Assembly: GCF_001424345.1 (NCBI RefSeq) | Contig: NZ_LMPF01000012.1 | Span: 125,662 to 189,661, forward strand | Source: Burkholderia sp. Leaf177 | GTDB taxonomy: Bacteria > Pseudomonadota > Gammaproteobacteria > Burkholderiales > Burkholderiaceae | Direction of reading: 5' to 3' | DNA: 64,000 nucleotides | Part shown: positions 12,527 to 29,403 of the stretch, one piece after another | How the letters are laid out: each line of letters starts with the position of its first letter | Position numbering within the stretch: position 1 is the first letter of the stretch | Position numbers and translations under genes: made by a program | Notes under the pieces: generated by a model | What the model was told of the DNA's origin: nothing | The model's input: the letters and a program-made list of their open reading frames with translations, nothing else | Database searches by the model: none

Positions 12527-13645
12527 ATGTCCAATATCGTTAAATCGAAATCTTATGCAAACATTCCATTTAATCAAATCACCACGCGGCGCAAGTTTTT
12601 AACCGGTCTTGCTTTGACCGGTGGCTCCGTTCTGCTCGCCGGCTGCGGCGGCGGAAGTGATGGCGCCAGCGGCTCGAGCGCCGTCGTCAACGATCAGGCC
12701 ACCGCGGCCGCCGCTGTCACCCCTACCGTTGTTGTCAACGCATCGACGTTTGGCGTCAAAGCGGACGGCAATACCAACGACCGCGTGGCGCTGCAAAATG
12801 CCATCAACGGATCGGTCGGAAAGATTCTGCTGATTAGCGGGCAAGTTCGTATCGACGTTGCCGGTCTTGATTTGAAAACCAACAGCTATGTCCGCTTTGC
12901 GCAGGGCGCCACGATCAAGCTGCTGCCCCATAATTCAACGTTCTATCAAGTCATGCGGATCTGGGACGTGCAAAACGTGACGGTTGAAAACGCGACCCTC
13001 GATGGCAGCAAGGAACTGAACTCGGCCACGCCGAACGCGAACAGCGGCGGCGGGGGAATGGGCTTCTCGATTGCAGGAGCGACTAACGTCACGCTTACCG
13101 CACCCACCACGATCAACACCTGGGGCGATGGCATCTACATTGCGAACTCGTACAGTTCGAAGAAAACGGTACCGAGCAACATCAACGTTGCGCAGCACGT
13201 GGCTAACGGGTGCCGTCGGCAAGGTGTGTCGATCATTAGCGGCAACGGCATTACGTTCACCAGTCCGCTGTGGGAGAACATAGCGGGCACGAACCCTTCT
13301 GCAGGGCTCGACATTGAACCAAATTCGAATGCCGATGTGCTTCAGAACATCAAGATCATTAGTCCGACGACTCGCAACTGCCAGTTCGGTATCGACATCT
13401 ATCTGGCAGCCCTTCCTGGTCCGATCGCGAAAACAGTCACCATCGATATTTCGAACCATACCGATTACGCCGCAAGCCATGTGGGCTTCAATGTCAGCGG
13501 TTTGCATTTGAACGGCAACACGGTCACCGGTCACATTGCAAGCAACTCTCCGACCTTCGTTGGCTCGAAGGTGGGTTACGCGTTGGGTGGATACGACATG
13601 GCAGGTCCGTCGGTGGAAGTGACCAATATCACCAAGACCAAGTAA
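12527..13645 (+). CDS. Tat-exported lipoprotein with pectate-lyase-like beta helix
   Basis: This 372-residue protein has a combined Tat and lipoprotein signal: TTRRKFLTG at 19-27 and LLAG-Cys40. After a Gly/Ser/Ala linker the mature part begins with FGVKADGNTND, typical of pectate-lyase-3 / GH28-like right-handed beta helices, and continues with repeated Asn/Asp/Gly turns to the end. It should be anchored on the periplasmic or outer-membrane face and act on a polysaccharide, as lyase, hydrolase or epimerase. Catalytic residues cannot be assigned with certainty. Its close paralogue lies at 28384-29403 (shared blocks ENATLDGSKELNSA, CRRQGVSIISG, PSAGLDIEPNSN), so the two bracket most of the polysaccharide genes. 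Confidence 0.8.
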   Translation: MSNIVKSKSYANIPFNQITTRRKFLTGLALTGGSVLLAGCGGGSDGASGSSAVVNDQATAAAAVTPTVVVNASTFGVKADGNTNDRVALQNAINGSVGKILLISGQVRIDVAGLDLKTNSYVRFAQGATIKLLPHNSTFYQVMRIWDVQNVTVENATLDGSKELNSATPNANSGGGGMGFSIAGATNVTLTAPTTINTWGDGIYIANSYSSKKTVPSNINVAQHVANGCRRQGVSIISGNGITFTSPLWENIAGTNPSAGLDIEPNSNADVLQNIKIISPTTRNCQFGIDIYLAALPGPIAKTVTIDISNHTDYAASHVGFNVSGLHLNGNTVTGHIASNSPTFVGSKVGYALGGYDMAGPSVEVTNITKTK

Positions 13646-13661
13646 CGGCGTGCATCAACCT

Positions 13662-13685
13662 GCCGGGCTATGCAAAACGCCCGGC
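13662..13685 (+). terminator. Probable terminator hairpin after the beta-helix gene
   Basis: GCCGGGC (13662-13668) pairs with GCCCGGC (13679-13685) across a 10-base loop, 17 bases after the stop. There is no immediate T-run, so rho-independent action is uncertain. Confidence 0.5.
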
Positions 13686-13856
13686 GGGAATGCGACTACC
13701 TTGCGGTTTTTCAGCCGTCTGCTAAACCACCGACCTTAGGCCGCGAAATGTCTAACTGTTGCTTGGGCGATGTACGCCTACAACACAAAAACGGTTGCTT
13801 TGCTATGCACGGCAACGCACATATCGGCGTGCTAACATGGTTTAGGAAAGATGCCG

Positions 13857-13880
13857 CGCGCGAGTCATCCGGCTCGCGCG
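13857..13880 (+). repeat. GC-rich hairpin upstream of a small membrane-protein gene
   Basis: CGCGCGAG (13857-13864) and CTCGCGCG (13873-13880) form a perfect 8-base stem with an 8-base loop, 63 bases before the ATG at 13943. It could be a leader hairpin or a terminator of transcription from the left. No T-run follows. Confidence 0.4.
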
Positions 13881-13942
13881 TTGCCCTAAGCCTTTAATGC
13901 AAAGAAGGGAGCGACGGCAACTTTGCAACTGTCGGAGGAGGT

Positions 13943-14137
13943 ATGTCACTACTTAGCATAGCCGGCACGGTTGTTTTTATCGGCGTCCTAGTGCTCTCGC
14001 TAGTCGCCGTGCTGGATATCGCGCTCTTCAAACCCAGTTCGAGGCGAGGTCGCAAGTCTCAACCAGAGCCAGGCGTCAATGCGCGAACGGCTAGCAAGCA
14101 GCCCCTCGCCTCCCACAAGTCCGATCGCAGTTCCTGA
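13943..14137 (+). CDS. Small single-span membrane protein
   Basis: This 64-residue protein sits behind a strong ribosome site (GGAGGAGGT, ending directly before the ATG). One transmembrane helix spans about residues 5-28 (IAGTVVFIGVLVLSLVAVLDIALF). A short basic, Ser/Arg/Lys-rich tail follows and is probably cytoplasmic. I recognise no family. It lies between the beta-helix lipoprotein and the convergent glycosyltransferase operon. The strong translation signal and clean topology argue for a real gene. It may assist the membrane assembly machinery, but that is only position-based. Confidence 0.65.
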   Translation: MSLLSIAGTVVFIGVLVLSLVAVLDIALFKPSSRRGRKSQPEPGVNARTASKQPLASHKSDRSS

Positions 14138-14224
14138 AGACTCCTCTGTTGCACCGCAACTAGCAAGCTCTCCACATTCTTTCTTCGCGTCTCACCTTCA
14201 TATTTCTCTTTGTTAGCTGCCACT

Positions 14225-15406
14225 TCAAGTCGCGGGTAGCTGGCGTTTTGCCATCGTTTCGACGTAGGTTTTCTCGTAACGTTGCCAGCTCGCTTCCATC
14301 GAAAAAAAGCTAACAACGCGGTTTCTCGCAGCGCGCCCGAGTGCTATGCGTTCGGTACGTGGCTCGTTCAACATCGCGCTTAACGCGCGGCCGAGCGCTT
14401 GCGGATTTTCAGCGGGCACCACACGTCCAGTCGCTCCGATAAGAAATGCGGTGTCGCCCACGTCAGTCGCGACACAGGGCACTTCGCACGCCATCGCCTC
14501 GCCAATCACGGTAGGTAGCCCTTCACTTTTAGACGAGAGACAGAAGACATCGAGCGCTGCCAGCAATGTTTGCGGCTCCGGCAGAGGGCCGAGTAAATAG
14601 CATGCGTGTCTCAGACCCGCGGTATCGAGCAATGCGATCAACTCGGCGTTGCTCTGGTCTAGACCGTGGCCTGCCATCACAAAGCGGCAGTGCGGCATGG
14701 AATGGAGCACCTCGCGCATCGCGGAAATGAAAGTACCGTAATCCTTGACCAGGTGATATCGGCCGATCACTCCAACCAGCGGCACGTCGTCGCCAATACC
14801 GAGCGAGCGGCGCAAGGACGCACGGGCGGCCGGATTTGCGCGGAAGCGCTCCAGGTCGATGCCGTTGTGAATCACCGTCATGCGTCGAGGGCAGTAGCCG
14901 CCCTTGTGGTGAGACAACCTCGCCGCTTCGGCGCAACATACGATTGCGTCTGGAACGACAGACGACACCAGCGCACAACTTCGCGCGACCCAGCGCGTTG
15001 CCCGGCTGCTACCGGTGAGCCGCAAATCGGTATGGTGGATGCCCCAGACGAGCGCCGGCCGCCTGATGCGCGAGCCGCGATACCACCGGGCCAATTGTGC
15101 CGCGTAGGTCGCTGCGCCGCCCATGAAGTCCGCGTGATACATCCACGTCTGAACGACATCCGGTTCAAGTTCGTCCAGCCATTGCGCAAGCTTACGGAAC
15201 AGCCGCGCGCTCGGCAAACCATTGTTCATGCCCAGAATGCGCACCTCGACACCAAGCATTGAAATGCGATTGGCGAGCGGCGCTTGCGGCGACAGTGAAA
15301 TGACCACATGTTTGAGGCCGTCGCGTCTCGACGTGCGGATCAGTCGCACCAACATTGTCTCTGCGCCGCCAATAGACAAATCCGTGATGACGTGGACGAT
15401 TTTCAC
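14225..15406 (-). CDS. GT4 glycosyltransferase
   Basis: This 393-residue GT-B fold enzyme adds a sugar from a nucleotide donor to the lipid-linked repeat on the cytoplasmic face. The N-terminal half begins VKIVHVITDLSIGGAETMLVRL; the GGAE motif is typical of GT4. The donor side has GVIGRYHLVKDYGTFI and the EX7E motif in SKSEGLPTVIGEAMA. The GTG start at 15406 overlaps the stop of the preceding glycosyltransferase (GTGA), so translation is coupled; longer reading of the frame is not needed. It is the last gene of the operon running leftward from 21589. Confidence 0.88.
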   Translation of the reverse strand: MKIVHVITDLSIGGAETMLVRLIRTSRRDGLKHVVISLSPQAPLANRISMLGVEVRILGMNNGLPSARLFRKLAQWLDELEPDVVQTWMYHADFMGGAATYAAQLARWYRGSRIRRPALVWGIHHTDLRLTGSSRATRWVARSCALVSSVVPDAIVCCAEAARLSHHKGGYCPRRMTVIHNGIDLERFRANPAARASLRRSLGIGDDVPLVGVIGRYHLVKDYGTFISAMREVLHSMPHCRFVMAGHGLDQSNAELIALLDTAGLRHACYLLGPLPEPQTLLAALDVFCLSSKSEGLPTVIGEAMACEVPCVATDVGDTAFLIGATGRVVPAENPQALGRALSAMLNEPRTERIALGRAARNRVVSFFSMEASWQRYEKTYVETMAKRQLPAT

Positions 15407-16584
15407 GGAGCGATGCTCCCGCTCTGCGGCACGGTTCGCGGCGCAGGCTCGAGCAGTTCGCGATATACCGCAAGCGTACGTTCGATCACAATACGCTCGT
15501 CGAATTCGCGCAGCGCTTTTTGCCGTGCGGCCCGGCCGAGCTTGCGGCAAAGCACGCGGTCATCGTCGAGCAGCCGGATCGCGTCGGCAAGCGTTTTGCT
15601 GTCACCGACTGGAACAATGAGACCGTCCTCACCGTTGATGGAAACCACCTCGCGGCATCCAGGCGCGTCCGTAATGATGAGCGGCAATGCGCACGCTGCC
15701 GCTTCGATCATCGCCTTCGGCAAGCCTTCGCGGTAACTCGGAAGTACTGCAACGTCCGTGTGCGCGAAGAGTTCCGGCATGTCGCTGACGTGGCCAAGCC
15801 ACTCGACCGAACCTTCCTTGATCCATTCTTGAAGCGACGCGTTGTCGACACTCGCCGGGTTTCCAGGGTCCGGTGCGCCAGCGAGAATGCAACGCACGCT
15901 GCGGCCCTCGCCTTTAAGGGTTCGCGCGGCATGGACGTATTCAGCAATACCCTTATCCCAAAGCAGCCGTCCTGCAAGCACCACGCGTAGCGGAGCGCTT
16001 CTGTCCGGCTCGGCTTCTTCCGGCCGTGGCTTGAAACGGGTCATGTTGACGCCCGATCCTTTGATAACTCGAATGGAATTTTCATCGATAATATTTGCCT
16101 CGCGGAACAACCGGAGATCGTCGGGATTTTGCAGGATCACGATGCTGCCCTTGCATCCCATCGCCATGCTCATGACGCTGCGCACAACTGGCCGCAGCAC
16201 TCGCGCCCGCATGTCGCGGCTGCTGAATACGTAGCCCATGCCGGCGACCGCATTGACACGTGCGGCCACCCCGGCAAGCCGCGCGGAGAGTGACCCGTAC
16301 ACCGCGCATTTGATCGTGAAGCCGTGCACGAGATCCGGCCGCTCGCGCCGCAAGAAACGCACGAGCCACGCAATCAGCATCATCTCGCGCAACGGATTGA
16401 GACTTCGCCGGATCATTGGCACGGGCTGCCATTGAAACCCGAGAGTGCGCAGTCGAGGACCATATTCGCCGGGTGGCGAGAGAAGAACGACTTCGTGTCC
16501 TGCGTCGCGCAATGCACAGGCGAGCGAGAGCCGGAAGTTGTAGAGATACCAGTCGGTATTCGCGAAGAGAACGATCTTATTCAT
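15403..16584 (-). CDS. GT4 glycosyltransferase
   Basis: This 393-residue glycosyltransferase begins MNKIVLFANTDWYLYNFRLSLACAL, like the PglA/WbpU-type enzymes that add HexNAc to lipid-linked oligosaccharides. The donor half shows VVLAGRLLWDKGIAEYV and EX7E in YREGLPKAMIEAAA. The start at 16584 overlaps the upstream gene by 8 bases, and its stop overlaps the downstream GTG. With the TviB/TviC pair upstream, a GalNAc- or GalNAcA-transferring role is reasonable, but specificity cannot be read. Confidence 0.88.
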   Translation of the reverse strand: MNKIVLFANTDWYLYNFRLSLACALRDAGHEVVLLSPPGEYGPRLRTLGFQWQPVPMIRRSLNPLREMMLIAWLVRFLRRERPDLVHGFTIKCAVYGSLSARLAGVAARVNAVAGMGYVFSSRDMRARVLRPVVRSVMSMAMGCKGSIVILQNPDDLRLFREANIIDENSIRVIKGSGVNMTRFKPRPEEAEPDRSAPLRVVLAGRLLWDKGIAEYVHAARTLKGEGRSVRCILAGAPDPGNPASVDNASLQEWIKEGSVEWLGHVSDMPELFAHTDVAVLPSYREGLPKAMIEAAACALPLIITDAPGCREVVSINGEDGLIVPVGDSKTLADAIRLLDDDRVLCRKLGRAARQKALREFDERIVIERTLAVYRELLEPAPRTVPQSGSIAP

Positions 16585-17803
16585 GTCGACTCCTTATTGA
16601 AATGCCGGCTGGTTCGGTTGCCAGCACGCGCGTCTCCGCATTCATCTGGTCACTGGATGCGCGTGGCGTCGTGCGGACGCCAACTTGCTGAAAGAGCGCG
16701 TCCCATTTTTGCAGCACCGTATCTACCGAATATCGGTTACGAATCGATTGCGCCGCCCTCGACCCGAGTTCCGTGCGCAAGGAGTCGTCGACGAAAAGCC
16801 GGCGAAGGCCTTGTTCCAGCGCGTCCTTGTTGCCCGTGGGAATCAGCAGCCCGTCGCTGCCGTCGCGCATCAATTCGCGCGGGCCGCTACGGCAATCGAA
16901 CGAGATGGCTGCCACGCCGAGTGCCATGGCTTCCATGAGAGCCATTGGCAACCCTTCGAACCGCGATGTCAGAGCGAAGACGTCCGAACGCAGCATTTCG
17001 TTCCATGGCGAGTTTGTCTTGCCCGGGAGAAACACGCGCCCTGCAAGTCCTGCCGCCACGATCTGCGCCTCGAGCTCCGCACGCTTCACTCCTTCGCCCC
17101 ATATCCACAGTTCCCAAAGCGGGAACTCGCGGGCGAGCGAAGCGAAAGCGGCAATCAACACGTCATACTGTTTTTGCTCGTGCAGCCGTCCGACCGAAAC
17201 AAGCCGCCGTGCACGGTCTACTGGCGTGTTCATGTCAGTTTCGTCAAGCGCACTGGATGACTCCGACAGCGCAAACAATTCGCGCGGTAACGGATTGGGC
17301 ATGACGGTCAACCGCCGCACTGCCGGATTCGTTTTCTCGAACCTCGCTGCGGCGCTTTCCGTGAGCAACGTCACCATGCTTGCTCGAGGATAAGCATTGC
17401 GACACGCAATGCGCCAGAATCGCGAGCGTCCATCCGCCGATGGGTCGTTGTGCTCGCAAACAACCACCGGAACATGCAGTCCCGCTGACGCCACGATTGC
17501 AGCAACGTTCACGTTCGTCAGAAATGAAATGACCACGTCGTAGTCGCCGTCGCGAATCAGATTACGCAACGCGAGCAGACGCGTGACGTAACCTCGGAAT
17601 CCACGCCGGCGAACACCCGCCAGATCGGCGAGATAGACCAGACGCACACCATTTGCAAGGCGATAAAAACATTCGCCTCTTCCACTGAAGGTCAGGACCA
17701 GCGTCACGCTGTCGCCTCTTTGCGCCCACGCGTTGACAAGCGTCGAGGCGACCCGTTCCGCTCCGCCGCTACCCATCGAACTCACGAGCAACAGGATTTT
17801 CAT
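16577..17803 (-). CDS. GT4 glycosyltransferase
   Basis: This is a 408-residue GT-B glycosyltransferase. It begins KILLLVSSMGSGGAERVASTLVNAW and carries RRLVSVGRLHEQKQYDVLI and EX7E in SRFEGLPMALMEAMALG, close to WbbL/WcaL-like and GalNAc-transferring members. The ATG at 17803 overlaps the flippase stop (ATGA). The open frame runs further upstream, but that part is inside the flippase gene. The C-terminal ~25 residues are polar and probably flexible. Together with the two genes after it, it supplies three sugar additions after the initiating one, suggesting a repeat unit of about four sugars. Confidence 0.88.
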   Translation of the reverse strand: MKILLLVSSMGSGGAERVASTLVNAWAQRGDSVTLVLTFSGRGECFYRLANGVRLVYLADLAGVRRRGFRGYVTRLLALRNLIRDGDYDVVISFLTNVNVAAIVASAGLHVPVVVCEHNDPSADGRSRFWRIACRNAYPRASMVTLLTESAAARFEKTNPAVRRLTVMPNPLPRELFALSESSSALDETDMNTPVDRARRLVSVGRLHEQKQYDVLIAAFASLAREFPLWELWIWGEGVKRAELEAQIVAAGLAGRVFLPGKTNSPWNEMLRSDVFALTSRFEGLPMALMEAMALGVAAISFDCRSGPRELMRDGSDGLLIPTGNKDALEQGLRRLFVDDSLRTELGSRAAQSIRNRYSVDTVLQKWDALFQQVGVRTTPRASSDQMNAETRVLATEPAGISIRSRHE

Positions 17804-19161
17804 GACCGGTTCGCCGGCGCTGGGGCCCAGCGGTTCGTGTAACAAATATAGCAAAGCAACGTGGTCGCATGCATCAGCGCAGTGCCGGCAAGAATGCCGG
17901 GCACGCCTAGCCAATGACTCATCGCCACGTTGCCGATTACCTTCACGACAAAGCTCACCAGCGCGATCAAAGCCATTTCCCGGTAACGGCTGGCGCTGGC
18001 GAAGAGCGTCAGCAATACGAGCCCGGAAAAATAAAATGGCACCTGCGCCAAGCCCCACCGGAATAACTCGGCCACCGCGGCTGTATCTTGCGCATTGAAC
18101 GCGCCACGCTGGAACAGCAGCGCCACGAGATGCGGCGCCAGCAGCCATGCCACCAGCGCGACGGCCCCGCCAAGTAGAACCATCAGCAAGGTCCATTTAA
18201 GCGCGGTGCGTCGCGCGCGCAGTGAATCGCCGCTACCAATGATGTCCGACAGTATGGGCAACGTAGCCTGACTGATCGCCAGCGCTCCCATGCTCAGCAA
18301 AAGCGACAGCACACGGTTGGCATATCCGAGCGTGGCAATCGCGCCGTCGCCGAAACCGGCTACGAAATATTGGTCAAGTACGGGCGTGCAGCACATCACC
18401 ATCTGTCCCAGCGCGAGCACGCGCACGGCCCTGAAAATCCGCGTCCATTGTGGTGCTTTGAACGTGAGCCGCGGTCTGGAGCGGACTGGATCGATCCGCA
18501 CCGAGAGCGCGCGCACGACGAGCGTCTGAATGATGTATCCGCCCACTGTGCCGCAGATAAGTGGCAGCACTGCAGTGTGATCGCTTGCAAAGAGGACGAA
18601 GATCAGGACGAGACCGGCCGGCAGTCCGTCGAGCAGCGTATTGATATGCCGCTCTCGTGATTGCAGGCGCGACGCGTAAGCGCACGACAGAAGCATCAGC
18701 ACGCCGATAGGTGCCATCGTCAGCATCATCTGGCGGCAGATGGCCCGTGTCTCAAGAGAGAGGTTCGTTGCAATGAGATGCAACGCAAGTGGCCAGAATA
18801 CGTACAGGAGAATGGTGAACAGCACGCCGGCTGCGATTGCCCATGCTTCGAGCTCGCCGAGAAAACGCGCCTGATCATCGACTGATTGCTGATGCAGATT
18901 GACAAACACCGGCACCAGCACAATGCCGAACACGGTAGCCACTGCCACGGGCAGCCAGCTCACCAGCGCCATGGTCAGCTGGTAGGCATCGACTACGCCA
19001 CCTGTTCCGTACCGGTAGGCGATCGCCATTTCCTTGAAGGCGCCCGCGCATCGGCCGGCGAGCACGAAGACCGATATGCGCATCGCTCCACGGGCGATCC
19101 GCAAGTGGTCAGGATGAATCTGCAGGAGCTTGACTCGCCACGCGCCGAATTGGGGAATCAC
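17800..19161 (-). CDS. MurJ/MviN-like polysaccharide flippase
   Basis: This 453-residue membrane protein has about 12-14 helices and belongs to the MOP superfamily. The stretch GFGDGAIATLGYANRVLSLLLSMGALAISQATLPILSD (read in pieces) and LLFQRGAFNAQDT are typical of MurJ/MviN rather than of classical Wzx. It probably flips the undecaprenyl-linked repeat unit. The start is a GTG at 19161 behind a strong GGGGAGGTGA that overlaps the end of the epimerase gene. A housekeeping MurJ would not be expected inside a polysaccharide operon, so this is taken as the locus's own flippase. Confidence 0.82.
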   Translation of the reverse strand: MIPQFGAWRVKLLQIHPDHLRIARGAMRISVFVLAGRCAGAFKEMAIAYRYGTGGVVDAYQLTMALVSWLPVAVATVFGIVLVPVFVNLHQQSVDDQARFLGELEAWAIAAGVLFTILLYVFWPLALHLIATNLSLETRAICRQMMLTMAPIGVLMLLSCAYASRLQSRERHINTLLDGLPAGLVLIFVLFASDHTAVLPLICGTVGGYIIQTLVVRALSVRIDPVRSRPRLTFKAPQWTRIFRAVRVLALGQMVMCCTPVLDQYFVAGFGDGAIATLGYANRVLSLLLSMGALAISQATLPILSDIIGSGDSLRARRTALKWTLLMVLLGGAVALVAWLLAPHLVALLFQRGAFNAQDTAAVAELFRWGLAQVPFYFSGLVLLTLFASASRYREMALIALVSFVVKVIGNVAMSHWLGVPGILAGTALMHATTLLCYICYTNRWAPAPANRS

Positions 19162-19165
19162 ACGC

Positions 19166-20257
19166 TCACCTCCCCGCCCTGCGCATGCCCGTACTTAAAC
19201 CAATGTCTTCTTCCTCGAAACAAGCACGCTCCGCGACAAACCGCACGTACCATGGCATCGCCAACCGGATTCCTTCGAGAAGCGGTATCTTGCGTTCGTA
19301 GCCCAACAGCTGTTCAGCCTTATCCACATTCGCTTGCGAATGACGGATATCACCGGCGCGAGCAGGACCATACACGGGGCCATGCTCGCGCAATGCAACA
19401 CCGTGACCGGCGAGCGTTTCTTTTAAGTAGTCATACAACTGGTTGAGCGTGGTGCGATCGCCGACCGCGACGTTATAGACCTGGTCGCGGCTCGAGTCGT
19501 CTGCCAAGGCTGCGAGCAAATTGGCCTGAACCGCATTGTCGATGAAACAGAAATCGCGGCTGGTCTCGCCATCGCCGTGGATCAGGACTTCGTCGCCGTT
19601 GATGAGCGCCGCCGTCCAGCGCGGAATCACGGCAGCGTACGCCCCTTCGGGGTCCTGGCGCTGTCCGAATACATTGAAGTAGCGAAGACCGATAGTACGG
19701 AGACCATAATTTCTAGCAAACACCGACGCATACAGTTCGTTTGCATACTTGGTGACTGCGTAGGGAGAAAGCGGCTGGCCAATGTGATCTTCCACTTTCG
19801 GCAAACCCGGATGGTCCCCGTAAGTGGAACTCGACGCCGCGTAGGTAAAACTTTTCACCTGCGCGTCGCGCGCTGCAACCAGCATGTTCAGATGGCCGCT
19901 GACATTGACTTCGTGCGTGGTGATCGGATCCTGTACCGAGCGCGGAACCGAGCCGAGCGCGGCCTGATGCAGCACGTGGTCCACATCGCGTACCGCAGCT
20001 TCGCAATCCCTAAGCCGTCTGATGTCGCCTTCCAAAAATGAAAAGCGCTGCCACTGGGCAGTGCTGACGAGCGAGCACACTTCATCGAGATTTCGACGAT
20101 GCCCGGTTGCGAAGTTGTCCAAGCCTACGACGCGCTGATTCAACTTGAGCAGCGTTTCCAGCAGATTCGAGCCGATGAAACCCGCAACACCCGTCACCAG
20201 CCACGTTTGTGGGTATCGGGCAAGATCGCGCCGTATGCGTTCGTAGCGGTTTAACAT
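19166..20257 (-). CDS. tviC: UDP-N-acetylglucosamine 4-epimerase, TviC/WbpP type
   Basis: This 363-residue extended short-chain dehydrogenase has the NAD site [11 protein letters not shown] (about residues 22-32), the catalytic Ser in ASSSTYGD and YAVTK in [14 protein letters not shown]. Length and blocks such as [14 protein letters not shown] and [14 protein letters not shown] match TviC/WbpP. These enzymes convert UDP-GlcNAc and UDP-GalNAc, or their uronic acids. The ATG at 20257 has TAGGAGCC upstream. Next to the TviB-like dehydrogenase it completes a route from UDP-GlcNAc to UDP-GalNAcA. The symbol is by family resemblance, not proven orthology. Confidence 0.85.
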
Positions 20258-20311
20258 CGACGGCTCCTACGGGTCACGTTGCTTTAATCTCGATCGTGGA
20301 CATTCCGGACG

Positions 20312-21589
20312 TCACAGGCGCAGGTCGCTCGCCTCGGCAGGCAGCACATATTTCAGGTCGTACAGCACGTGCCGCGATTTGCCGAACGAGCGCAACTTCT
20401 CGGCGCCCCACTCCACGAACTGACGATGCGCAACGGCAACAACGGTTGCGTCATATATGCCTTGTGCGGGTTCATCGATAGGATCGAGCCCGTATTCGTG
20501 TCGAGCTTCCTCCTTCGATACCCATGGATCGAACACATCGACGAGCACTCCGTAGCGCTTCAGGCCGTTCACCACATCGACCACCCGCGTGTTGCGAAGA
20601 TCAGGACAGTTTTCCTTGAACGAGAGGCCAAGCAGCAGCACCCGCGCGCCGGTGATGTGAATGTCGTGGCGCGTCAACGCCTGAATCAACTGCGCGACGA
20701 CGTAGTCTCCCATGCTGTCGTTCAATCGCCGCCCCGCGAGGATGATCTCCGGGTGATAACCGATCGACTGGGCCATGTGCGTCAGATAATAAGGATCGAC
20801 GCCAATGCAATGACCGCCTACAAGGCCGGGCCGGAAAGGCAGGAAATTCCACTTGGTGCCCGCTGCAAGCAACACCGCCTCCGTGTCCAGACCGAGCTTG
20901 TTGAAGATGATGGAGAGTTCATTGACAAGTGCAATGTTGAGATCGCGTTGCGTATTCTCGATCACCTTCGCGGCCTCGGCGACGCGAATGCTGCTCGCCT
21001 TGTGCGTGCCTGCCGTGATGATTTCCTGATAAAGCGCATCAACTACATCGGCAATTTCAGGCGTTGAGCCAGAGGTGATCTTGCGAATGTCGCTGACGCG
21101 ATGCGCCTTGTCGCCCGGATTGATCCGCTCCGGGCTGTAGCCCGCGAAAAAATCCACGTTGTACTTCAGGCCGGACACGCGCTCGAGCAGCGGTACGCAT
21201 TCATCTTCGGTCGCGCCGGGATAGACCGTCGATTCGTAGATCACGATATCGCCCGGCTTCAATACAGACCCTATGGTTTCAGTTGCCCTGATCAGCGGAC
21301 CGAGGTCTGGCCGCTTGAAGCGATCTATTGGCGTAGGCACCGTCGCAATGAACACGTTGCACGCCCGGAGCTTTTCCATGTCGTACGTGAAAGTCAGGCC
21401 GCGTGAGGCAGCCAGTTCTTCCGGGCTGATCTCGAGCGTAGCGTCGCGTCCCTCGAGCAGACTCGAAATGCGCGCGCGGTTGATATCGAATCCAAGTACG
21501 GAACGGCGTTTTCCAAACTCCACCGCCAAAGGCAAGCCCACGTACCCCAAGCCGACCACCGCGACGCTCAGATCATGTGACGCACGCAT
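20312..21589 (-). CDS. tviB: UDP-N-acetylhexosamine 6-dehydrogenase, TviB/WbpO type
   Basis: This 425-residue enzyme belongs to the UDP-glucose/GDP-mannose dehydrogenase family. [19 protein letters not shown] is the NAD site and [14 protein letters not shown] carries the catalytic Cys. IATVPTPID and the C-terminal [16 protein letters not shown] are typical of the WbpO/TviB/WbpA branch that oxidises N-acetylated sugars. The expected product is UDP-GlcNAcA or UDP-GalNAcA. The ATG at 21589 sits behind AAAGGAGA. It is the first gene of the leftward operon through the three glycosyltransferases. It is the main reason to predict an acidic amino-sugar polymer. Confidence 0.88.
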
Positions 21590-21670
21590 AACCGATCTCC
21601 TTTAAAGCAAGCATGCCGTTCGAGCGGCCGTTGCGGCCGTCGCAATGAGGTGATTGCTGCCGTGAGGTAT

Positions 21671-23917
21671 TTAGTGCGACGGACCGCCGTAGTCATATGC
21701 AGCGTATGAGCGGCTGCCATAGCGTCGCGCAAGTGCGTAGTCGGTCGTGTTCATGTTGGTCCCGTTCAACAGCACGCCATTCACTTTTGCACCGGTCTGC
21801 GCGAGCCGCTTGATCGACTCCTCGAGCTCGCCTGAACGCGTGTCGGCAAAACGCGCGACCAGGAACAGCAATCCGGCGGCGGGCACCATGATCCCCGCGT
21901 CGGAGACCACGAGCACAGGCGGCACGTCGATGATCACGACGTCGTAGCGCGCAGAGACGGTCGAAACGATCTCGCGGAATCTCGGCAACATCACCAGTTC
22001 AGATGGATCGGCCGGATACGGGCCCGTTTGCAGCACATCCAGACGCGGAAGCACGTCTTGCGCAATTGCGGCGTCGAGCGCGCACGTGTCCGCCAGAACG
22101 TCAGAGAGCCCAACGCCCGGCGTGAGTCCCACGTATCGATGTACGCGTCCCTTGCGCAGGTCCGCGTCGATAAGCAGAACGCGCTTGCCGCCCGATGCAA
22201 ACAGCGCAGCCAGATTGACCGAGAGGAACGACTTGCCAATGCCGGGCAATGGACCCGTCAGCATCACCACGTTGTTCCGCGCGCCGATCAGCGCGAACTG
22301 GAGCGCCGAGCGCAGGATGCGCAGCGCTTCTATCGACGGATCTTTCGGGTCGATAGAGGCAAGCAGCAGATTCTCATAACTCTTCTCCTTCATCTTTCTA
22401 TCCAGCATCTCTTGCTTGGCGCTTTGCGGAATGGTCGCGACCACGTTGAGTCCCGTCGCCACTTCGATTTCCCGCGAATCCGTCACGCCACGGAAGATAT
22501 AGTCGCGCGCGAGCGCAAGTCCGATACCGGCGAACATGCCAAACACCGTCGAGACAAGTATGACCAGCCACTTCACCGGTTTGACCGGCCGCTCCGGGAC
22601 ATCGGCAATATCGATCAGTTGTGCGGACCCCGCTTTGCCTGCCTGAATGACGCGCAGCTGTTCAATGTTATTGCGAAGCGCCGTGTACAAGTCGGTATTG
22701 ACACGCACGTCCCGCATTAGGCGCATGGCGCCCTGCTGCTCCGTTGGCATTGCCTTGACTTGCAGGCTCAGGTCATCGATATACCGCTGCGCTGCAGCGA
22801 TCTGCTTGTCGAGCGAGATCACCGTTGGATAGGTGCGGGAAAACGTCGCCATCAAGGTGTCGCGCCGGCGCTGAAGGTCGATCATTTGCGTGGTTGCATC
22901 TGCACTGCGCTGCAAGAGCAGCCGCGCCTCTTCGTTCATGTCGAGCAGCGCGTGACCATTACGATAGTTGTTATAAGCGTCTTCGGCTTCCCTGACCTGA
23001 CGCGCCATGGTCGGCAACTGGCTCTGCAAATAATCGAGGGAATTTTTCGCAATAACTGCCTTGCGTGCTGCATTCCATTGCTCGTACTGACGGCCGATCT
23101 CGTTGATTGTGTCCGACGCGCGAACCGCGTCGGGACTTTCTAGCGAGACTTTCAGCACACTTGATTTAGCCCCTTGCTCCTTGATCTTCACGCTTTTCTG
23201 CAGATGGTCGATCGTTAGTTGACGCGACTCACGCTTTAAGTCGAACGTGGCCCCGGAACGTCCATTCAGTGCGTCTACGCGCAGTGCAATCGGTCCCCGG
23301 CCAGTTTCAAAGTTGGCGAGCTCGCCTACCCGGCCCGTCGCGCCTTGCTCTGGAAGGCCTGGACCGCTGAGGGAATAACTTCCGTCAGAAAGCGCCTTGA
23401 GCGTGTAGTTTTCGCCCAGCATCTTTTGGGGAACTTCGAACGCGCTGACCTTGACGGACTCATTGCCCCATACATAGCCGCCCGTGCCCATCAGCCCAGG
23501 CTCGGAGAGCGAATCAGCGCGGCGTGCCAGCCACTCTCCGATCACCGGGAAGTAATGCGGCTTCACATAGACGCTGAGGTTGCGTGCTTCAACGGCGCGC
23601 GCCACTATGAAACGCGAGCCGATTACTTGCATTTCGCTTTCCGCGGACGACTTCTCGTCGAAACCCGGGGAGATGTTGTTGATGATCTCGTTGCCATCCT
23701 GCCGTGACGCTCCGCCGGCAGAGTCGTCCACCTTGATCAGCACACTGGCTTCATAGATAGACGGAGAGAGAAACGCATAAGCCACACCGAGCACCACGAA
23801 AATTACAGTAGTGACGATGATCATCACGCGATATTGAATGAGTGCGTCGAGGATCGAAGCAATGCGCGCTTGCTCCGTGTGATCGAAGCCCGGTTCTCCT
23901 GCGGAAGCTTGTCTCAT
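21671..23917 (-). CDS. Wzc-like polysaccharide co-polymerase / tyrosine autokinase
   Basis: This 748-residue inner-membrane protein controls polymer length and export. The N-terminal Wzz domain begins with a helix at about residues 28-50 (VMIIVTTVIFVVLGVAYAFL) and a second helix lies near 480 (WLVILVSTVFGMFAGIGLAL). Coiled-coil segments lie between, including the PTVISLDKQIAAAQ region. The BY-kinase domain has Walker A GPLPGIGKS, Walker A' LLIDADLRKG and VIIDVPPV. The C-terminal tail is Tyr-rich (Tyr in TDYALARRYGSRSYAAYDYG), the usual autophosphorylation cluster. The ATG at 23917 has a GGGGAAAG site. Its normal partners, Wza and the Wzb phosphatase, are not in this window. Confidence 0.9.
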   Translation of the reverse strand: MRQASAGEPGFDHTEQARIASILDALIQYRVMIIVTTVIFVVLGVAYAFLSPSIYEASVLIKVDDSAGGASRQDGNEIINNISPGFDEKSSAESEMQVIGSRFIVARAVEARNLSVYVKPHYFPVIGEWLARRADSLSEPGLMGTGGYVWGNESVKVSAFEVPQKMLGENYTLKALSDGSYSLSGPGLPEQGATGRVGELANFETGRGPIALRVDALNGRSGATFDLKRESRQLTIDHLQKSVKIKEQGAKSSVLKVSLESPDAVRASDTINEIGRQYEQWNAARKAVIAKNSLDYLQSQLPTMARQVREAEDAYNNYRNGHALLDMNEEARLLLQRSADATTQMIDLQRRRDTLMATFSRTYPTVISLDKQIAAAQRYIDDLSLQVKAMPTEQQGAMRLMRDVRVNTDLYTALRNNIEQLRVIQAGKAGSAQLIDIADVPERPVKPVKWLVILVSTVFGMFAGIGLALARDYIFRGVTDSREIEVATGLNVVATIPQSAKQEMLDRKMKEKSYENLLLASIDPKDPSIEALRILRSALQFALIGARNNVVMLTGPLPGIGKSFLSVNLAALFASGGKRVLLIDADLRKGRVHRYVGLTPGVGLSDVLADTCALDAAIAQDVLPRLDVLQTGPYPADPSELVMLPRFREIVSTVSARYDVVIIDVPPVLVVSDAGIMVPAAGLLFLVARFADTRSGELEESIKRLAQTGAKVNGVLLNGTNMNTTDYALARRYGSRSYAAYDYGGPSH

Positions 23918-24836
23918 ACTTTCCCCGCCTTGTTTGTTACGGACTGCTAACCCGTACAAGCGTATCTCACCCTATCAGCAGCATTCGGCGTCATATGTGC
24001 GGGAGTGCACACTAGCGATCTGGAAGAACCGGACCTTAAAACTTCATGAATGCAGCGACTTTCGATTAACACTTTTAGATGTCATCTATTCAGATAACAC
24101 GTCATCCAAAAGGCTCCCCTTCACGACATCCGCCGATGGTCCTGCCAATCCATATCGCGAAGCAACTTCGATTTACGCCCTGAGTAACAGGCGTTCAATC
24201 TTAGGAATTGTGTTCATCAAGACGAATACCACTCGAAACCTTCCAACTTCGACGGATTCCACCCGGCTTTAACCAAGCGCATCGGCATAGATCAACGATT
24301 CTTAAAACCGCGCCTAAGGAGAGAAAGCATATTCACGAAAATACCGCCCGAAAAACATCAGGCCATACCCTGTAATCGAGTTGGATAACTAGATTCGTCG
24401 AGCAATCCTAACTTCATATTTTTCATAACATTGCGATTACCAAACACCGTAGTTTTAGCGTCGTCTCCATGACTATCGACGCTATGTTCGATAGCCCACA
24501 TTAAGCCGATCAGGTGTAAAAAAAATATGCTAAGGAGGCGGATTGAAAACGTTTTAGATAACCCAATGAATGGAGTTAGCGCTGCTAAGCGCTGCGAACA
24601 ATGAAGGTAAACCGCAATATAGATCGGCGTTGAAACGGACAGTTTTTTGCCTATGATAAAAGACGCCTACAGGCACAACGTATCGCACGACGTCAATGAC
24701 GGTTGTCAGTACCAACTAATACGATCTCCGTTGAACGCTGGAGCTCTCAATGCGATTTCAGGGACGTTAAACTCGCCAGGAGTTAAACGCCGAACGTCGA
24801 AAATCGACTCACCGCTGTGTCGCCGGGCTGGAAACC
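23918..24836. promoter_or_regulatory. 919-base divergent region between wzc-like and wecA-like genes
   Basis: I find no supportable gene here. The sequence is clearly AT-richer than its flanks. It must contain promoters for the kinase gene (leftward) and the initiating transferase (rightward). A 10-base palindrome AAAACGTTTT (24546-24555) and the nested repeat TTAGCGCTGCTAA at about 24576 are visible. TAAGGAGG at about 24531 resembles a ribosome site but leads only to very short frames. An untranslated leader or small RNA would be possible. Confidence 0.35.
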
Positions 24837-25973
24837 ATGTTTAACCTTGCGCTAAGCTTTGTCAGTTCATTTCTCGTCACCATGCTGATAGTCCGATACG
24901 CCGGGCGATTCGGCAGCACGTTGATAGATTACGATCTCGACGCAGTGCAAAAGAATCACAAGTATCCCGTTCCTCGCGTTGGAGGGTTGGGGATAGTGTG
25001 TGCAACTTGCGTGACCTGTACGATAGGCGCGTTATTCGGATCAAATCCTCGCGGCGAAACCATGATGCTGATCTGCGCCGCAGCACCGCCGTTCTGTAGT
25101 GGTTTTCTGGAAGACACGACCAAGCGTGTGACCCCGCGCGCCCGCTTGTTCAGCGCATTGGGCGGCGCGGTGATTGGCGCTTATTTGCTTCAGGCAGTGA
25201 TCGCGCGCGTGGATCTGCCAATGATCGACAACTGGCTCGCCATGTCGCCGCTGGCTATCGGCCTGACCATGGTGGCCGTTGCCGGTTTGACGAACGCCAT
25301 GAATATTGTCGATGGAATGAACGGCCTTGCATCCGTGACGGCGATTCTTATCTTCGGGTCGATCGGTTATGTTGCACACGAGGTCGGTGACTGGTTTGCA
25401 ATGAGCGTGGCGCTTACTATGGTTGGCGCGATCCTCGGCTTCGCGATCTGGAACTATCCAACGGCCTACATTTTCCTGGGGGATGGCGGCGCATACTTTG
25501 TGGGATTCGTGATGGCCGAACTTTTGGTCGTATTAATAGTAAGACATCCTAACGTCTGCTCCTGGTATGCCGCGGTGGTCGCAATCTATCCGCTCTTCGA
25601 AACGATCTTCTCGATTTATCGGCGGCGCATGCTCAAAGGACGCTCGGTCAGCCAACCAGACGGATTGCATCTGCATACAATCGTGTACAAACGCATTGCA
25701 CGCCGAGGCGCGCGTTCAGAAGATACCGGCGTGCGTGATCGCGGAAACCCTAATACATCGCCTTACCTCTGGACGCTCGCGCTTGTTGGCATTGTTCCGG
25801 CTACGCTTTTTTATCAGAGTCCAACGGTCCTTGCCTGCGCGGCGCTCGCGTTCGTGATCACTTACCTTTGGTTATATCGCTGCGTTGTTCGTTTCAAAAC
25901 ACCGCACTGGATGATCCCGGGTCATGGCGGGGTAATCGAAGCGGCCGCTGCGGAGAAAACGCGGCATAGATAA
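24837..25973 (+). CDS. WecA/MraY-family undecaprenyl-phosphate sugar-1-phosphate transferase
   Basis: This 378-residue membrane protein has about 10-11 helices and belongs to the polyprenyl-phosphate N-acetylhexosamine-1-phosphate transferase family. Motifs in order: HKYPVPRVGGLG after helix 1, TNAMNIVDGMNGLA, the metal-site loop FLGDGGAYFVG, and IYRRRMLKGRSVSQPDGLHLHTIV. It loads the first HexNAc-1-phosphate onto undecaprenyl phosphate and so starts the repeat unit. The ATG at 24837 has GGAAAC just upstream. The last ~30 residues are a charged tail. It is transcribed away from the kinase gene and is convergent with the next acetyltransferase. Confidence 0.88.
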   Translation: MFNLALSFVSSFLVTMLIVRYAGRFGSTLIDYDLDAVQKNHKYPVPRVGGLGIVCATCVTCTIGALFGSNPRGETMMLICAAAPPFCSGFLEDTTKRVTPRARLFSALGGAVIGAYLLQAVIARVDLPMIDNWLAMSPLAIGLTMVAVAGLTNAMNIVDGMNGLASVTAILIFGSIGYVAHEVGDWFAMSVALTMVGAILGFAIWNYPTAYIFLGDGGAYFVGFVMAELLVVLIVRHPNVCSWYAAVVAIYPLFETIFSIYRRRMLKGRSVSQPDGLHLHTIVYKRIARRGARSEDTGVRDRGNPNTSPYLWTLALVGIVPATLFYQSPTVLACAALAFVITYLWLYRCVVRFKTPHWMIPGHGGVIEAAAAEKTRHR

Positions 25974-25993
25974 CCGTTACTTGTCCTTTGGCT

Positions 25994-27133
25994 TCACGAC
26001 GCGTCGGCTTCGAGGACTTCCGGCGTCTGCCTGCCTGCAACACGTCCCGCCATAAGGCGCAGGCTCTTTACGCCTTGCTTCGCGGCATGGCCCGAACGCC
26101 CCCATACGGTTGGCAGCACGAGGAACGAGGCAGTCGTGTACGAAAGCCCGCCGGTCCACGAAAATTTGTAGCTCTGATCGCCCGGACCGAAATCGAAATC
26201 AAGCCCGCGATCGTAAGCCCACTTTACGCAGTCGTCGATCAGTACCGTGCCTGGCGAAAGCCGCGCAACCTCTCGGTCGTAAGTGTTGGCGAGAAGGTAA
26301 GCGCACGCGGCGTTCACTGCAATGATGTTCATGGCGCACGGCTCGCCGTTTAATGTCAGCACGAACAAGCGGAATTCGCCTGCATCGGGTGAGGCCTGGG
26401 ACAACAAGGCATTCCAGAATGCGCGGCTGGATTCCGAAAACACCCACTGACTATTCAGACCGTTGTGGCGAGCCCATTCGCGCTTGTGCAGGACGAACCA
26501 GTCTATAAGCGGCTGGAGTCGTGCATCGTTTGCTTCGACCATATCGATACTGATCGCACCATGTGAAGCAAGCCGCTTTTTCAAGTACAGCGGGCGGGTT
26601 CTAGACCGGCCTGGCCGAGAGCGACAAAAGGCTTCCCAATCTTGCTCGCTTCGCAACATTGCATAAGGCGTCGGTTCTTCTTGCAAGCGGCGCGCAATAT
26701 TCTCGCGAGTTGCATAGCGGTGCAATAAAGACGTCGCGCGAATACGCCATAGCTGGAAAACATCGGCGCCGGTTGATTTCAGCGCCGCGCGCCAGGTGGC
26801 CCTGACGAGTTCGTCTCTATCGTCGTCAGGTGCGGCAAGGATATCGCTGGGAGCGCGGTTTTCGGGGCCTAGCGGCGTCGCGTATTTCCAGCAGATATTC
26901 CTGAACGTAACGAGCGGCCAAATAGCGACGAGCCTTCCATCGCGTCGACCTGTCACACAATGAAGCTTTCGTCGAGCGACGGTGTCATCCGTCTCGAGCG
27001 CGCTGTTGCAAAAGGCAAACGACTGAAAGTATTCACCTTTCGCGCAGCGCCAGAGATCGTCCCATTCAGGCTGAAGTGCGCGGAAGCCATCGACCGTTCG
27101 CACGGTTTCAAACGCAAGGGCTTCGGTTGACAT
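25994..27133 (-). CDS. CelD-like GNAT acetyltransferase
   Basis: This 379-residue soluble protein is a paralogue of the gene at 9784-11004. Shared features are WDDLWRCAKGEYFQSFAFC near the start, LHKREWAR, LTLNGEPCAMNIIAV and LDFDFGPGDQSYKFSWT near the end, the GNAT acyl-CoA region. The start is the ATG at 27133 behind CAGGAG; the open frame before it lacks a ribosome site. It lies 90 bases after the polymerase gene on the same strand and is probably co-transcribed with it. It is a likely sugar N- or O-acyltransferase of the same pathway; donor and target are unknown. Confidence 0.75.
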   Translation of the reverse strand: MSTEALAFETVRTVDGFRALQPEWDDLWRCAKGEYFQSFAFCNSALETDDTVARRKLHCVTGRRDGRLVAIWPLVTFRNICWKYATPLGPENRAPSDILAAPDDDRDELVRATWRAALKSTGADVFQLWRIRATSLLHRYATRENIARRLQEEPTPYAMLRSEQDWEAFCRSRPGRSRTRPLYLKKRLASHGAISIDMVEANDARLQPLIDWFVLHKREWARHNGLNSQWVFSESSRAFWNALLSQASPDAGEFRLFVLTLNGEPCAMNIIAVNAACAYLLANTYDREVARLSPGTVLIDDCVKWAYDRGLDFDFGPGDQSYKFSWTGGLSYTTASFLVLPTVWGRSGHAAKQGVKSLRLMAGRVAGRQTPEVLEADAS

Positions 27134-27223
27134 CGGTGTGCTCCTGAAAGAGCGAAACGATTGTTCCATAGCAAGCGTAGCGCTGCTTTCGATACATGGC
27201 CTTGTAAACATCGGCGCCACGAA

Positions 27224-28303
27224 CTAGCCGATGAAGTAGGTGTACACCTCTTCGTAATAACTTTTCACGGCGTCGGCGGTCACCACGGACAGCAAGATTA
27301 CGGTCAGCCAGACAACGATGGCGTTTCTAAACTTGATCTCAGGAACAAAGAATGGAACAAGCAAGGGAACGCAATACCAGACTCGTCCTTTCCCAAACGG
27401 AAAAACCAGAAACGCTGCGACCAGATAGACGACAAGTCCAATATGCATGATGCACATCTGGCGAATCGATTCGTCCCGCTGCGTACGCGCCTCGCGCCCG
27501 GAAGCGTAGAGGACGGCAACCGACGCAAACATGTATCCCACTAAAAGTGCGATCAAGCGGATGGTGAAATCGTCCTGGTAACCCGCATATTCTTCAAGCC
27601 TGCGGCCGCCGAAGTTCTGGAACAAAAAGCTTGCGGACGATGCCAATACGAGCGCCATTGCGCTAACGCCCGCCAGCGCGACCCACAGGCTGCGGTTGCA
27701 TACGCGCACGGCGATAAGCAAAAGAGCCGGCACCGCGAACGTAGTGTGAACGGCGCTGGCAATGAGCGCGCCGAGAATGGGACGGTTGAGCCTGACGGCG
27801 AACAGCATGGTGATTGCAAACGCAAACCCTTGCCGGATCTGGAACAAGCCGACTGTAGCAAGCGCGGTCGGCATCACTATCCAAAGGATCAGACCAATCA
27901 ATGGCCGGCGAAGATTGGCAAGCGAATACATGACAAGCAGGTTCAGGACAACGACCGTCAGACGAACGCCGGCTTCCGGTGTCATTCCTAACGAGTTGAC
28001 GAGAACCACCCACACTCGCCAGCCTAATTCTTCCGTCACCAGGCTGATGGCAAAGCTGGAATGCGACGCGCTGTCCTGATAGAACTGCACGACCCAATCC
28101 CACGTTGTCACCTTGAAATAAGCGACGTAATTATCCTGATCCAGAACACCAATCGATCTGTCGCCAAAGCCTAGCGTGGCGAGCACGACAGCAGCGAGAA
28201 GCAGGAACACCCACCCCTGCGGCGTGCGGAAGTAAGCGCTCGCACGAGGCCTTCCGAGCGACGTCCGCAACGTGGATGTGCCGATCGCCGATGTCGATTT
28301 CAT
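27224..28303 (-). CDS. EpsG-like (Wzy-type) polysaccharide polymerase
   Basis: This 359-residue membrane protein has about 10 helices and few charged residues. The pattern NYVAYFKV, then FAISLVTEELGWRVW and IRQGFAFAITMLFAV, resembles EpsG/Wzy polymerases, in which an IRQG/A-type segment and a following HTTFAVPALLL recur. It should join flipped repeat units on the periplasmic side. The ATG at 28303 has AGGAAAG upstream. Sequence identity in this group is low, so assignment rests on topology, these motifs and its place among flippase, initiating transferase and co-polymerase. It is the only polymerase candidate in the locus. Confidence 0.75.
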   Translation of the reverse strand: MKSTSAIGTSTLRTSLGRPRASAYFRTPQGWVFLLLAAVVLATLGFGDRSIGVLDQDNYVAYFKVTTWDWVVQFYQDSASHSSFAISLVTEELGWRVWVVLVNSLGMTPEAGVRLTVVVLNLLVMYSLANLRRPLIGLILWIVMPTALATVGLFQIRQGFAFAITMLFAVRLNRPILGALIASAVHTTFAVPALLLIAVRVCNRSLWVALAGVSAMALVLASSASFLFQNFGGRRLEEYAGYQDDFTIRLIALLVGYMFASVAVLYASGREARTQRDESIRQMCIMHIGLVVYLVAAFLVFPFGKGRVWYCVPLLVPFFVPEIKFRNAIVVWLTVILLSVVTADAVKSYYEEVYTYFIG

Positions 28304-28383
28304 CGTTCTTTCCTGAAGATGACCGAATGCACTTCGTCAAGTACGCCGGATGCCTACGGCTCCCGATTTAACCTTGCACGATT

Positions 28384-29403
28384 TCACGGAACAAGTCTTC
28401 GGCCGGTTACAACGATCTCGGGCCCTGCGTTGTCGTATCCAACACTTTTGACCTCAGCTAGCCGAGGGTTGACCCAGGTCGGAGAAATACTGGCGATCCG
28501 GCCCGTGACCACATGACCTTCGGTCTTCAGTCCGGACACGCTGAACGCGGCGTCCGTTGACGACTCGTCCCGATGATTCATTATTTCAATCTGCACGTTC
28601 TTCGCAATCGGCCCGGGAATTTCTTTCAGGTAAACCAGGATTCCCGTACGGCAATTGCGGGTCGTCGGATTAAGGATGCGAATCTGTTCCAGCACGTCCT
28701 GATTGCTGTTCGGTTCTATGTCCAGACCCGCAGATGGATCCGTTCCGCCGATGTTTTCCCATACTGGATTTTCGAAGAGCACATCCCGGCCGCTAATAAT
28801 CGATACCCCTTGCCGCCGGCAACGGCTTGCCCGATGATCGATCACACGAATTGCGGTACTGCATCTGTCCTTGTGACCATAACTGTTGGCGATATAAATT
28901 CCGTCGCCCCAGCAGTTCACTGTCGCAGTCGACAAGATAGCGACGTCTGAACTTCCGGCAATCGAAATCCCCATGCCGTACCCGCCTTGCACCGGATCCT
29001 TTTTTGCCGAATTCAATTCCTTGCTTCCGTCGAGCGTCGCGTTTTCCAGCACTACCTTTCGAACATCCCAGATGCGCAGAATCTGATAAAAAACCTCATT
29101 GTGCGGAAGCAATTTGATCGACGCATTGGGTGCGAATCGCAAATGACTTCCCGTTCGCATATCGAGGCCGCTTGCATCAATCCTGCTCCGGCCGGTGATC
29201 AGCAACGTCTTGCCGACTGACCTGTCGATGGCGTTCTGGAGGTTCGCTTTGTCGTTTGCCTTGCCGTCTCCCTTTACTCCGAACCACGTGTCGACCACAA
29301 CGTCGGCAGAAGCGGATGTTGCCGCTTGTGCAGTGAGCACGCCTCGGGTTTCAAGCAGTGCGCCAAGCAGCAGCGTTTCAATAACGTGTCGCCGACACAC
29401 CAT
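28384..29403 (-). CDS. Exported pectate-lyase-like beta-helix protein
   Basis: This 339-residue paralogue of the lipoprotein at 12527-13645 shares RIWDV, ENATLDGSKELNSA, WGDGIYIANSY, CRRQGVSIISG and PSAGLDIEPNSN. The start is the ATG at 29403 behind GGGAGG. Its signal (CRRHVIETLLLGALL ... TAQA-A) contains twin Arg and ends near residue 29, with no lipobox Cys. So this copy should be released into periplasm or medium, while the other is lipid-anchored. The FGVKGDGKANDK block opens the beta helix. It probably cuts or modifies the acidic polymer made by the locus. It is 80 bases from the polymerase gene on the same strand. Confidence 0.8.
   Translation of the reverse strand: MVCRRHVIETLLLGALLETRGVLTAQAATSASADVVVDTWFGVKGDGKANDKANLQNAIDRSVGKTLLITGRSRIDASGLDMRTGSHLRFAPNASIKLLPHNEVFYQILRIWDVRKVVLENATLDGSKELNSAKKDPVQGGYGMGISIAGSSDVAILSTATVNCWGDGIYIANSYGHKDRCSTAIRVIDHRASRCRRQGVSIISGRDVLFENPVWENIGGTDPSAGLDIEPNSNQDVLEQIRILNPTTRNCRTGILVYLKEIPGPIAKNVQIEIMNHRDESSTDAAFSVSGLKTEGHVVTGRIASISPTWVNPRLAEVKSVGYDNAGPEIVVTGRRLVP

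Follow-up and report, generated by a model that had tools for sequence, protein, structure and literature searches.

Paired exported beta-helix proteins, one predicted to be lipid-anchored and one soluble, at a TviB-type polysaccharide locus of Burkholderia sp. Leaf177: putative depolymerases related to phage tailspikes

The window analysed here is a stretch of 64,000 nucleotides of Burkholderia sp. Leaf177 (NCBI RefSeq assembly GCF_001424345.1, contig NZ_LMPF01000012.1, positions 125,662 to 189,661 of the forward strand). Two genes in it, designated A and B, bracket a set of polysaccharide genes and encode predicted exported beta-helix proteins. Their features are listed below in window coordinates (Tat, twin-arginine translocation; aa, amino acids; core numbering in parentheses).

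12527..13645, plus strand: A (372 aa), predicted to be a beta-helix enzyme active on glycans, Tat-exported and lipid-anchored
12587..12646, plus strand: export signal of A, from the twin-Arg R21R22 through the lipobox LAGC (Cys40), read from the sequence; pattern kept in clade A
13121..13132, plus strand: WGDG motif of A, D201 (core D136), in 87/87 family rows; D in 13/13 distant homologues
13214..13225, plus strand: RRQG motif of A, R230/R231 (core R165/R166), in 87/87 family rows; distant homologues, R166 in 13/13 and R165 in 11/13
13304..13321, plus strand: GLDIEP motif of A, D262 and E264 (core D197/E199), in 87/87 family rows; distant homologues, E199 in 13/13 and D197 in 12/13
28384..29403, minus strand: B, predicted Tat-exported soluble paralogue of A (339 aa)
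29389..29394, minus strand: twin-Arg R4R5 of B, read from the sequence; a twin-Arg is also present in many N-termini of clade B

The two proteins were identical at 175 of 299 residues (59%; BLASTP, E 3e-129), the longest identical block being 14 residues, and the mature N-terminus was FGVKADG in A and FGVKGDG in B. Chance similarity or a recent duplication was ruled out by synonymous differences near saturation (pS 0.75) and by clades of mixed genera (see below). Seven family matches were found in the genome itself, of which only A and B gave long alignments; the remaining five were short (E of at least 4e-6). No Pfam family exceeded its cut-off for A or B in a search up to E 0.1, in which only PF12708 and PF13229 appeared, both below the cut-off, and in which no polygalacturonase family (GH28) was found; no NCBIfam family was found at E 0.01. 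PF12708 was rejected as a label for the pair, because it was below the cut-off for both proteins and gave no genome match at E 0.001.

By motif reading, the export signal of A (TTRRKFLTGLALTGGSVLLAGC-GGG; TTRRKFL...LLAGC-GGG) carries a twin-Arg and closes with the lipobox cysteine Cys40 (12644-12646), as in Tat-exported lipoproteins, and the N-terminus of B (MVCRRHVIETLLLG) has a twin-Arg and lacks a lipobox. The predicted start sites are backed by relatives (MTSLIKRYANADLLSLDQLTT... for A and MVDRRRVIHSLLMG for B). Lipoproteins of the Cys-Gly type are, under the usual sorting rule, sent to the outer membrane, where they face the periplasm by default. Thus, A would leave the cytoplasm by Tat, be lipidated at Cys40 and, with Gly at +2, reach the outer membrane; the signal of B predicts export alone, and B would be soluble in the periplasm or released. 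An earlier sequence-only reading of this DNA had described a paralogous pair bracketing polysaccharide genes, long shared blocks with an FGVK(A/G)DG start, and a Tat signal with a lipobox cysteine in one protein and a twin-Arg without the cysteine in the other, all of which agrees with the present data.

The same reading had proposed, as checks, a fold prediction and a search for a cluster of catalytic residues. The AlphaFold2 cores (predicted local distance difference test, pLDDT, 96.6 for A and 95.1 for B) had the strand patterns of right-handed beta-helices, the type of the AlgE A-module. Of 16 positions tested, 11 were invariant across 87/87 family rows, including D136, R165, R166, D197 and E199. 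The 13 distant homologues aligned with them were hand-picked from larger match lists (52, 243 and 9 records). Residues that are invariant in the family and mostly kept in distant phage homologues are typical of an active site. The catalytic motif of AlgE is DPHE, and DPH[ED] was found in 0/86 family rows.

For the tree, L001-L007, L112-L130, L170 onward and matches covering fewer than 200 profile positions were left out, and rows with identical last 220 residues were merged (from 170 to 86; among the B rows, L155 represents B of the window itself). The 87 ingroup tips were divided into clade A (52 tips, support 0.976) and clade B (35 tips, support 0.79), with Caballeronia and Paraburkholderia rows in both. 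The pattern RR...lipobox-CG was read in 49 of 51 clade-A rows and in 0 of the 34 clade-B rows tested. Since the lipobox tracks the clade, the contrast between a lipid-anchored and a soluble form appears to be an old, kept feature and not an accident of one genome. The two clade-A rows without the pattern, L109 (genome G045) and L133 (genome G015), represent copies that the genome search found in pieces. At L133 (G015:C292), tviC and the gene for a PglA-like glycosyltransferase (GT) are in pieces as well as the beta-helix gene; the locus is decaying, as if the pathway and the depolymerase were disappearing together.

The following genes lie between A and B (UDP, uridine diphosphate; GlcNAc, N-acetylglucosamine; GlcNAcA, N-acetylglucosaminuronic acid).

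14225..15550, minus strand: glycosyltransferase, GT4 type, start codon uncertain
15403..16584, minus strand: PglA-like GT4 (8dqd, E 1.6e-51); among the neighbours found for the beta-helix family, the most constant
16577..17812, minus strand: PglH/PglJ-like GT4 (NF050056, 163 bits; cut-off of 600 not reached)
17800..19161, minus strand: MurJ/MATE-type flippase, Wzx-like (PF03023, 109 bits)
19166..20257, minus strand: TviC-like UDP-GlcNAcA C4-epimerase (NF011728, best family, 459 bits; cut-off of 760 not reached)
20312..21589, minus strand: TviB UDP-GlcNAc C6-dehydrogenase (NF011729, 665.5 bits; cut-off 592)
21671..23959, minus strand: Wzc-type chain-length regulator/tyrosine kinase
24837..25973, plus strand: WecA-like initiating sugar-phosphate transferase (PF00953, 100.8 bits)
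25994..27220, minus strand: FemAB/GNAT-like acyltransferase (PF13480, 90.3 bits)
27224..28303, minus strand: EpsG-family protein, likely Wzy polymerase (PF14897, 48.8 bits; cut-off 30.1)

Judged from these genes, the locus looks like an exopolysaccharide locus of the Wzx/Wzy type with TviB/TviC-type sugar synthesis. On the basis of the TviB, TviC-like, WecA-like, PglA-like and PglH/PglJ-like products, the repeat unit would start with an N-acetylhexosamine and contain alpha-1,3- and alpha-1,4-linked N-acetylgalactosamine (GalNAc) or N-acetylgalactosaminuronic acid (GalNAcA); the K17 polymer of Acinetobacter baumannii has a repeat unit of comparable kind (PMC10715181). Three PF13480 acyltransferase genes are in or flank the locus (9772-11004, 25994-27220 and 31346-32434), which suggests that the polymer is decorated with acyl or aminoacyl groups. 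A tyrosinase gene (PF00264; 7767-9347, minus strand) with a twin-Arg motif adjoins the locus. Its homologues were found beside the same locus at L163 (79%) and L165 (74%) and, with 37% identity, between family copies at the distant L202, and a match was present somewhere in 19/58 genomes of the genus; the enzyme may be a matrix partner that oxidises phenols. Directly beside B, a 472-aa protein (29783-31201, plus strand) had no Pfam match up to E 0.1; we take it to resemble an enzyme of the alkaline phosphatase superfamily.

The beta-helix family was carried by 35/58 genus genomes at E 1e-20, and TviB was present in 32/58 at E 1e-150. All 32 TviB-positive genomes carried the family, compared with 3 of the 26 TviB-negative genomes, the other 23 being without it (Fisher 3e-13, with counts not corrected for shared ancestry). 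At least one family copy was found within 25 kb of tviB in 32/32 TviB-positive genomes, and two copies in 27 (G049 was counted as near tviB on condition that its contig is circular); the family is thus encoded with biosynthesis genes, as exopolysaccharide-locus depolymerases are. When named genomes were scanned, 58 loci were obtained; except for three matches in Prevotella and Cetobacterium, which were short and weak, they came from Caballeronia, Paraburkholderia and some records bearing the name Burkholderia. Among 398 genomes of the taxonomic family there were 39 carriers, of which the four outside the genus all had TviB; 31 further TviB genomes outside the genus were without the beta-helix family. 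TviB was rejected as a universal partner, because it fails in the carriers G016, G017 and G045 and in the distant carrier G608, whose family copies have a UDP-glucose-dehydrogenase-type gene nearby in place of TviB.

The PglA-like GT, with at least 57% identity, was found in 34/35 genus carriers (split into two pieces in G015) and in 1/23 non-carriers (G051); this line of 57% was drawn post hoc, after the results were known. The search covered 80 of 95 genomes, the 15 TviB-positive non-carriers of other genera being left out. The GT accounts for G016 and G017, the carriers without TviB, and G045 had a 48% partial match only. G608 and G676, two distant carriers among 397 other genomes of the phylum searched, have the PglA-like GT (57-59%) adjoining two or three family copies. 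The GD, RRQ and DxEP core is retained in all five family copies read in these carriers, with RRQG replaced by RRQA in one of them.

Relatives outside the group were mainly phage tailspikes, plus a Priestia plasmid protein and two distant genomes. The protein on the Priestia filamentosa plasmid (L159:7890-8789) is a 36%-identical family member annotated as 'glycosyl hydrolase family 28-related', and rfbC and a flippase gene are about 4.6 kb and 6.1 kb away from its gene, respectively. A family profile was built from 31 family cores and searched among 14 sequences. Tailspike gp43 of phage APK48 matched it at E 3e-28; D136, R166, D197 and E199 are kept in gp43, in which Y replaces R165 and R replaces W134. 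A and B are homologous to gp43 and its relatives (C62, 4316 and crAss001 gp22) across the catalytic coils and have the D/R/D/E signature in common with them, which places them in the family of these tailspikes. They differ from this virion protein in architecture: a particle-binding N-terminus is absent, and A and B begin with export-signal motifs, with the lipobox in A, followed by the beta-helix. AP22 gp54 and a candidate for the depolymerase VexL (see below) were at background level in the same profile search. Beta-elimination requires a uronate. APK48 gp43 is reported to act as a glycosidase on the K48 capsule, hydrolysing its beta-D-GlcNAc-(1->3)-alpha-D-Glc linkage (Glc, glucose) (PMC8092837, available text), and this capsule is termed a neutral polysaccharide in a cited title; a protein bearing the signature therefore acts there as a hydrolase.

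From these data, we consider it somewhat probable that A and B work as exported beta-helix depolymerases, conserved as a pair, on the exopolysaccharide of their own locus, likeliest by tailspike-type endo-hydrolysis. The link to the own polymer is drawn from the co-occurrence and proximity of the family with tviB and the PglA-like GT. After Tat export, both proteins, A tethered and B soluble, would use the set of D136, R166, D197 and E199 common to phage tailspike depolymerases for endo-hydrolysis of a glycosidic bond of the repeat unit; this bond may be the N-acetylhexosamine linkage that the Wzy polymerase forms. Chain length could thereby be set, stray polymer in the periplasm cleared, or cells freed from the matrix. 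A more specific form, which we put forward tentatively as a possibility somewhat short of even chances, is trimming in two compartments, in which a duplicated bacterial branch of tailspike hydrolases, tethered and soluble, would cut the repeat-unit linkage of the nascent PglA/PglH-type polymer, the PglA-like GT and not the uronic acid marking the substrate.

Several observations weigh against hydrolysis of the own polymer. The best fold match of A and B was an alginate epimerase/lyase; the hydrolytic tailspikes APK37, APK44 and APK87 did not match the family profile, and APK89 matched weakly; G076 and G376 have the PglA-like GT and TviB yet no family copy; G051 is an intact exception, with the GT present and the family copy absent; and 21/80 copies in genus genomes sit away from the locus. 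In G051, the stop codon of the GT gene is its natural end (codon 382 of 383), and the locus contains GT, wzc, wecA and flippase homologues. Near the GTs of this genome, at L208:6594-7688 (minus strand), a different lipobox protein was found, with the N-terminal GxKxDGxTxD segment of the beta-helix fold, a PF12708 match below the cut-off (15 bits) and no D/R/D/E signature; it may be a non-orthologous stand-in for A.

The fold match is in line with A and B being uronate lyases that cut a GalNAcA-containing polymer by beta-elimination, as RbmB acts on Vibrio polysaccharide (VPS), a reading that we regard as unlikely but serious. It is opposed by the relative with D136, R166, D197 and E199 that is reported to hydrolyse a neutral capsule, with no uronate there to eliminate, and by the absence of RbmB among the sequence matches. 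The AP22 tailspike is a lyase of N-acetylmannosaminuronic acid (ManNAcA) according to the available text of PMC8092837, and neither it nor the VexL-like protein is matched by the profile; since the profile misses three hydrolases too, these non-matches weigh little. Hydrolysis is thus clearly, if not decisively, favoured over elimination, although the top fold match points the opposite way. C5-epimerisation of the AlgE/AlgG type, in which uronic residues would be altered without cutting, would fit the same fold match and is very improbable, the least likely of the explanations considered: the DPHE-type motif is absent in 86/86 rows, the sequence match with AlgE chains is essentially limited to the N-terminal GDG segment, and APK48 gp43, the one characterised relative, cuts its substrate. 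That both proteins are non-catalytic, as adhesins or as polymer-binding proteins that hold the polymer on the cell, is improbable in view of D136, R165, R166, D197 and E199, invariant in 87/87 rows and mostly kept in distant phage homologues.

The copies away from the locus would be expected if A and B depolymerised foreign glycans, from plants, fungi or competitors, and stood beside the locus by chance, a reading that we rate as little more probable than the adhesin one. No homologue of the polysaccharide genes of the window was found around the stand-alone copies L051, L055 and L056, and 10 neighbouring frames of L055/L056 contained no polysaccharide family. The close co-occurrence and proximity of the family with tviB and the PglA-like GT speak against this, as does the same GT adjoining family copies in the two distant carriers. 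The stand-alone clade-A copies L051 and L055 have about 100 extra residues between the lipobox and the beta-helix, perhaps a carbohydrate-binding domain. Of the interpretation in the sequence-only reading, in which the proteins trim or epimerise the acidic polymer of their own locus, the exported beta-helix, an enzyme-like conservation, the association with a predicted GalNAcA-polymer locus and the predicted contrast in anchoring are supported; elimination and epimerisation were weakened by APK48 gp43 and by the DPHE motif count, and the placing of one protein at the cell surface and of the other as released goes further than the export signals predict.

AlgL/AlgG/AlgE and PelA/PslG are polymer-processing enzymes encoded, like A and B, with exopolysaccharide genes, and AlgE has the fold in common with A and B. 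We know of no conserved pair of lipid-anchored and soluble paralogues for any of these. Self-acting depolymerases at polysaccharide loci are a known kind: RbmB of Vibrio cholerae (PMC11637428) and PelA (PMC9894940) are examples, and polymer-processing enzymes accompany exopolysaccharide genes elsewhere (PMC9894940, PMC9075953, PMC8829089). RbmB is a VPS lyase for which the available part of its source describes no lipidated and soluble pair; a relation to A and B was seen in fold only, so that membership in its family is doubtful. The sequence-only reading had regarded depolymerisation of a GalNAcA polymer as a new activity. This was not borne out, because VexL of Achromobacter denitrificans, a producer of such a polymer, is named a Vi antigen depolymerase in the available text of PMC9597891. 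As depolymerases of a predicted GalNAcA-polymer producer, A and B would resemble VexL; Vi is exported by an ABC transporter (PMC9597891), whereas the present locus looks Wzx/Wzy-type. The VexL candidate (L129:13768-14883), a pectate-lyase-type protein picked by its position in a Vi-like locus, matches PF00544 and not the family profile; identity of the pair with VexL was rejected on this comparison, in which the position-chosen candidate stood for VexL. The Vi-like loci L127, L128, L129 and L130 all have tviB and tviC homologues beside a TviE-type gene, the rest being assigned by position; at E 1e-80, a TviE match was found in 13/398 genomes of the taxonomic family, one of them above the cut-off.

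No publication on the tethered and soluble pair was found in a brief literature search, in which subscription journals were thinly covered. The apparently new elements are the sequence family, its relation to tailspikes, and the retention of a tethered form together with a soluble one. The reason for depolymerases in polysaccharide gene clusters is an open question in the available text of PMC9894940 and PMC9075953, and in this family one enzyme is kept in two anchoring forms beside one type of polymer cluster, so that separate roles of the tethered and the soluble enzyme can be tested by removal of single genes. Since one homologous tailspike has a known target linkage, chemistry and bond can be predicted concretely, and this homology could aid the detection from sequence of depolymerases among proteins below every Pfam cut-off. 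If A and B indeed trim the nascent polymer by hydrolysis in two compartments, they would represent a new hydrolase family for exopolysaccharide self-processing and would link bacterial polymer-trimming enzymes to phage capsule depolymerases.

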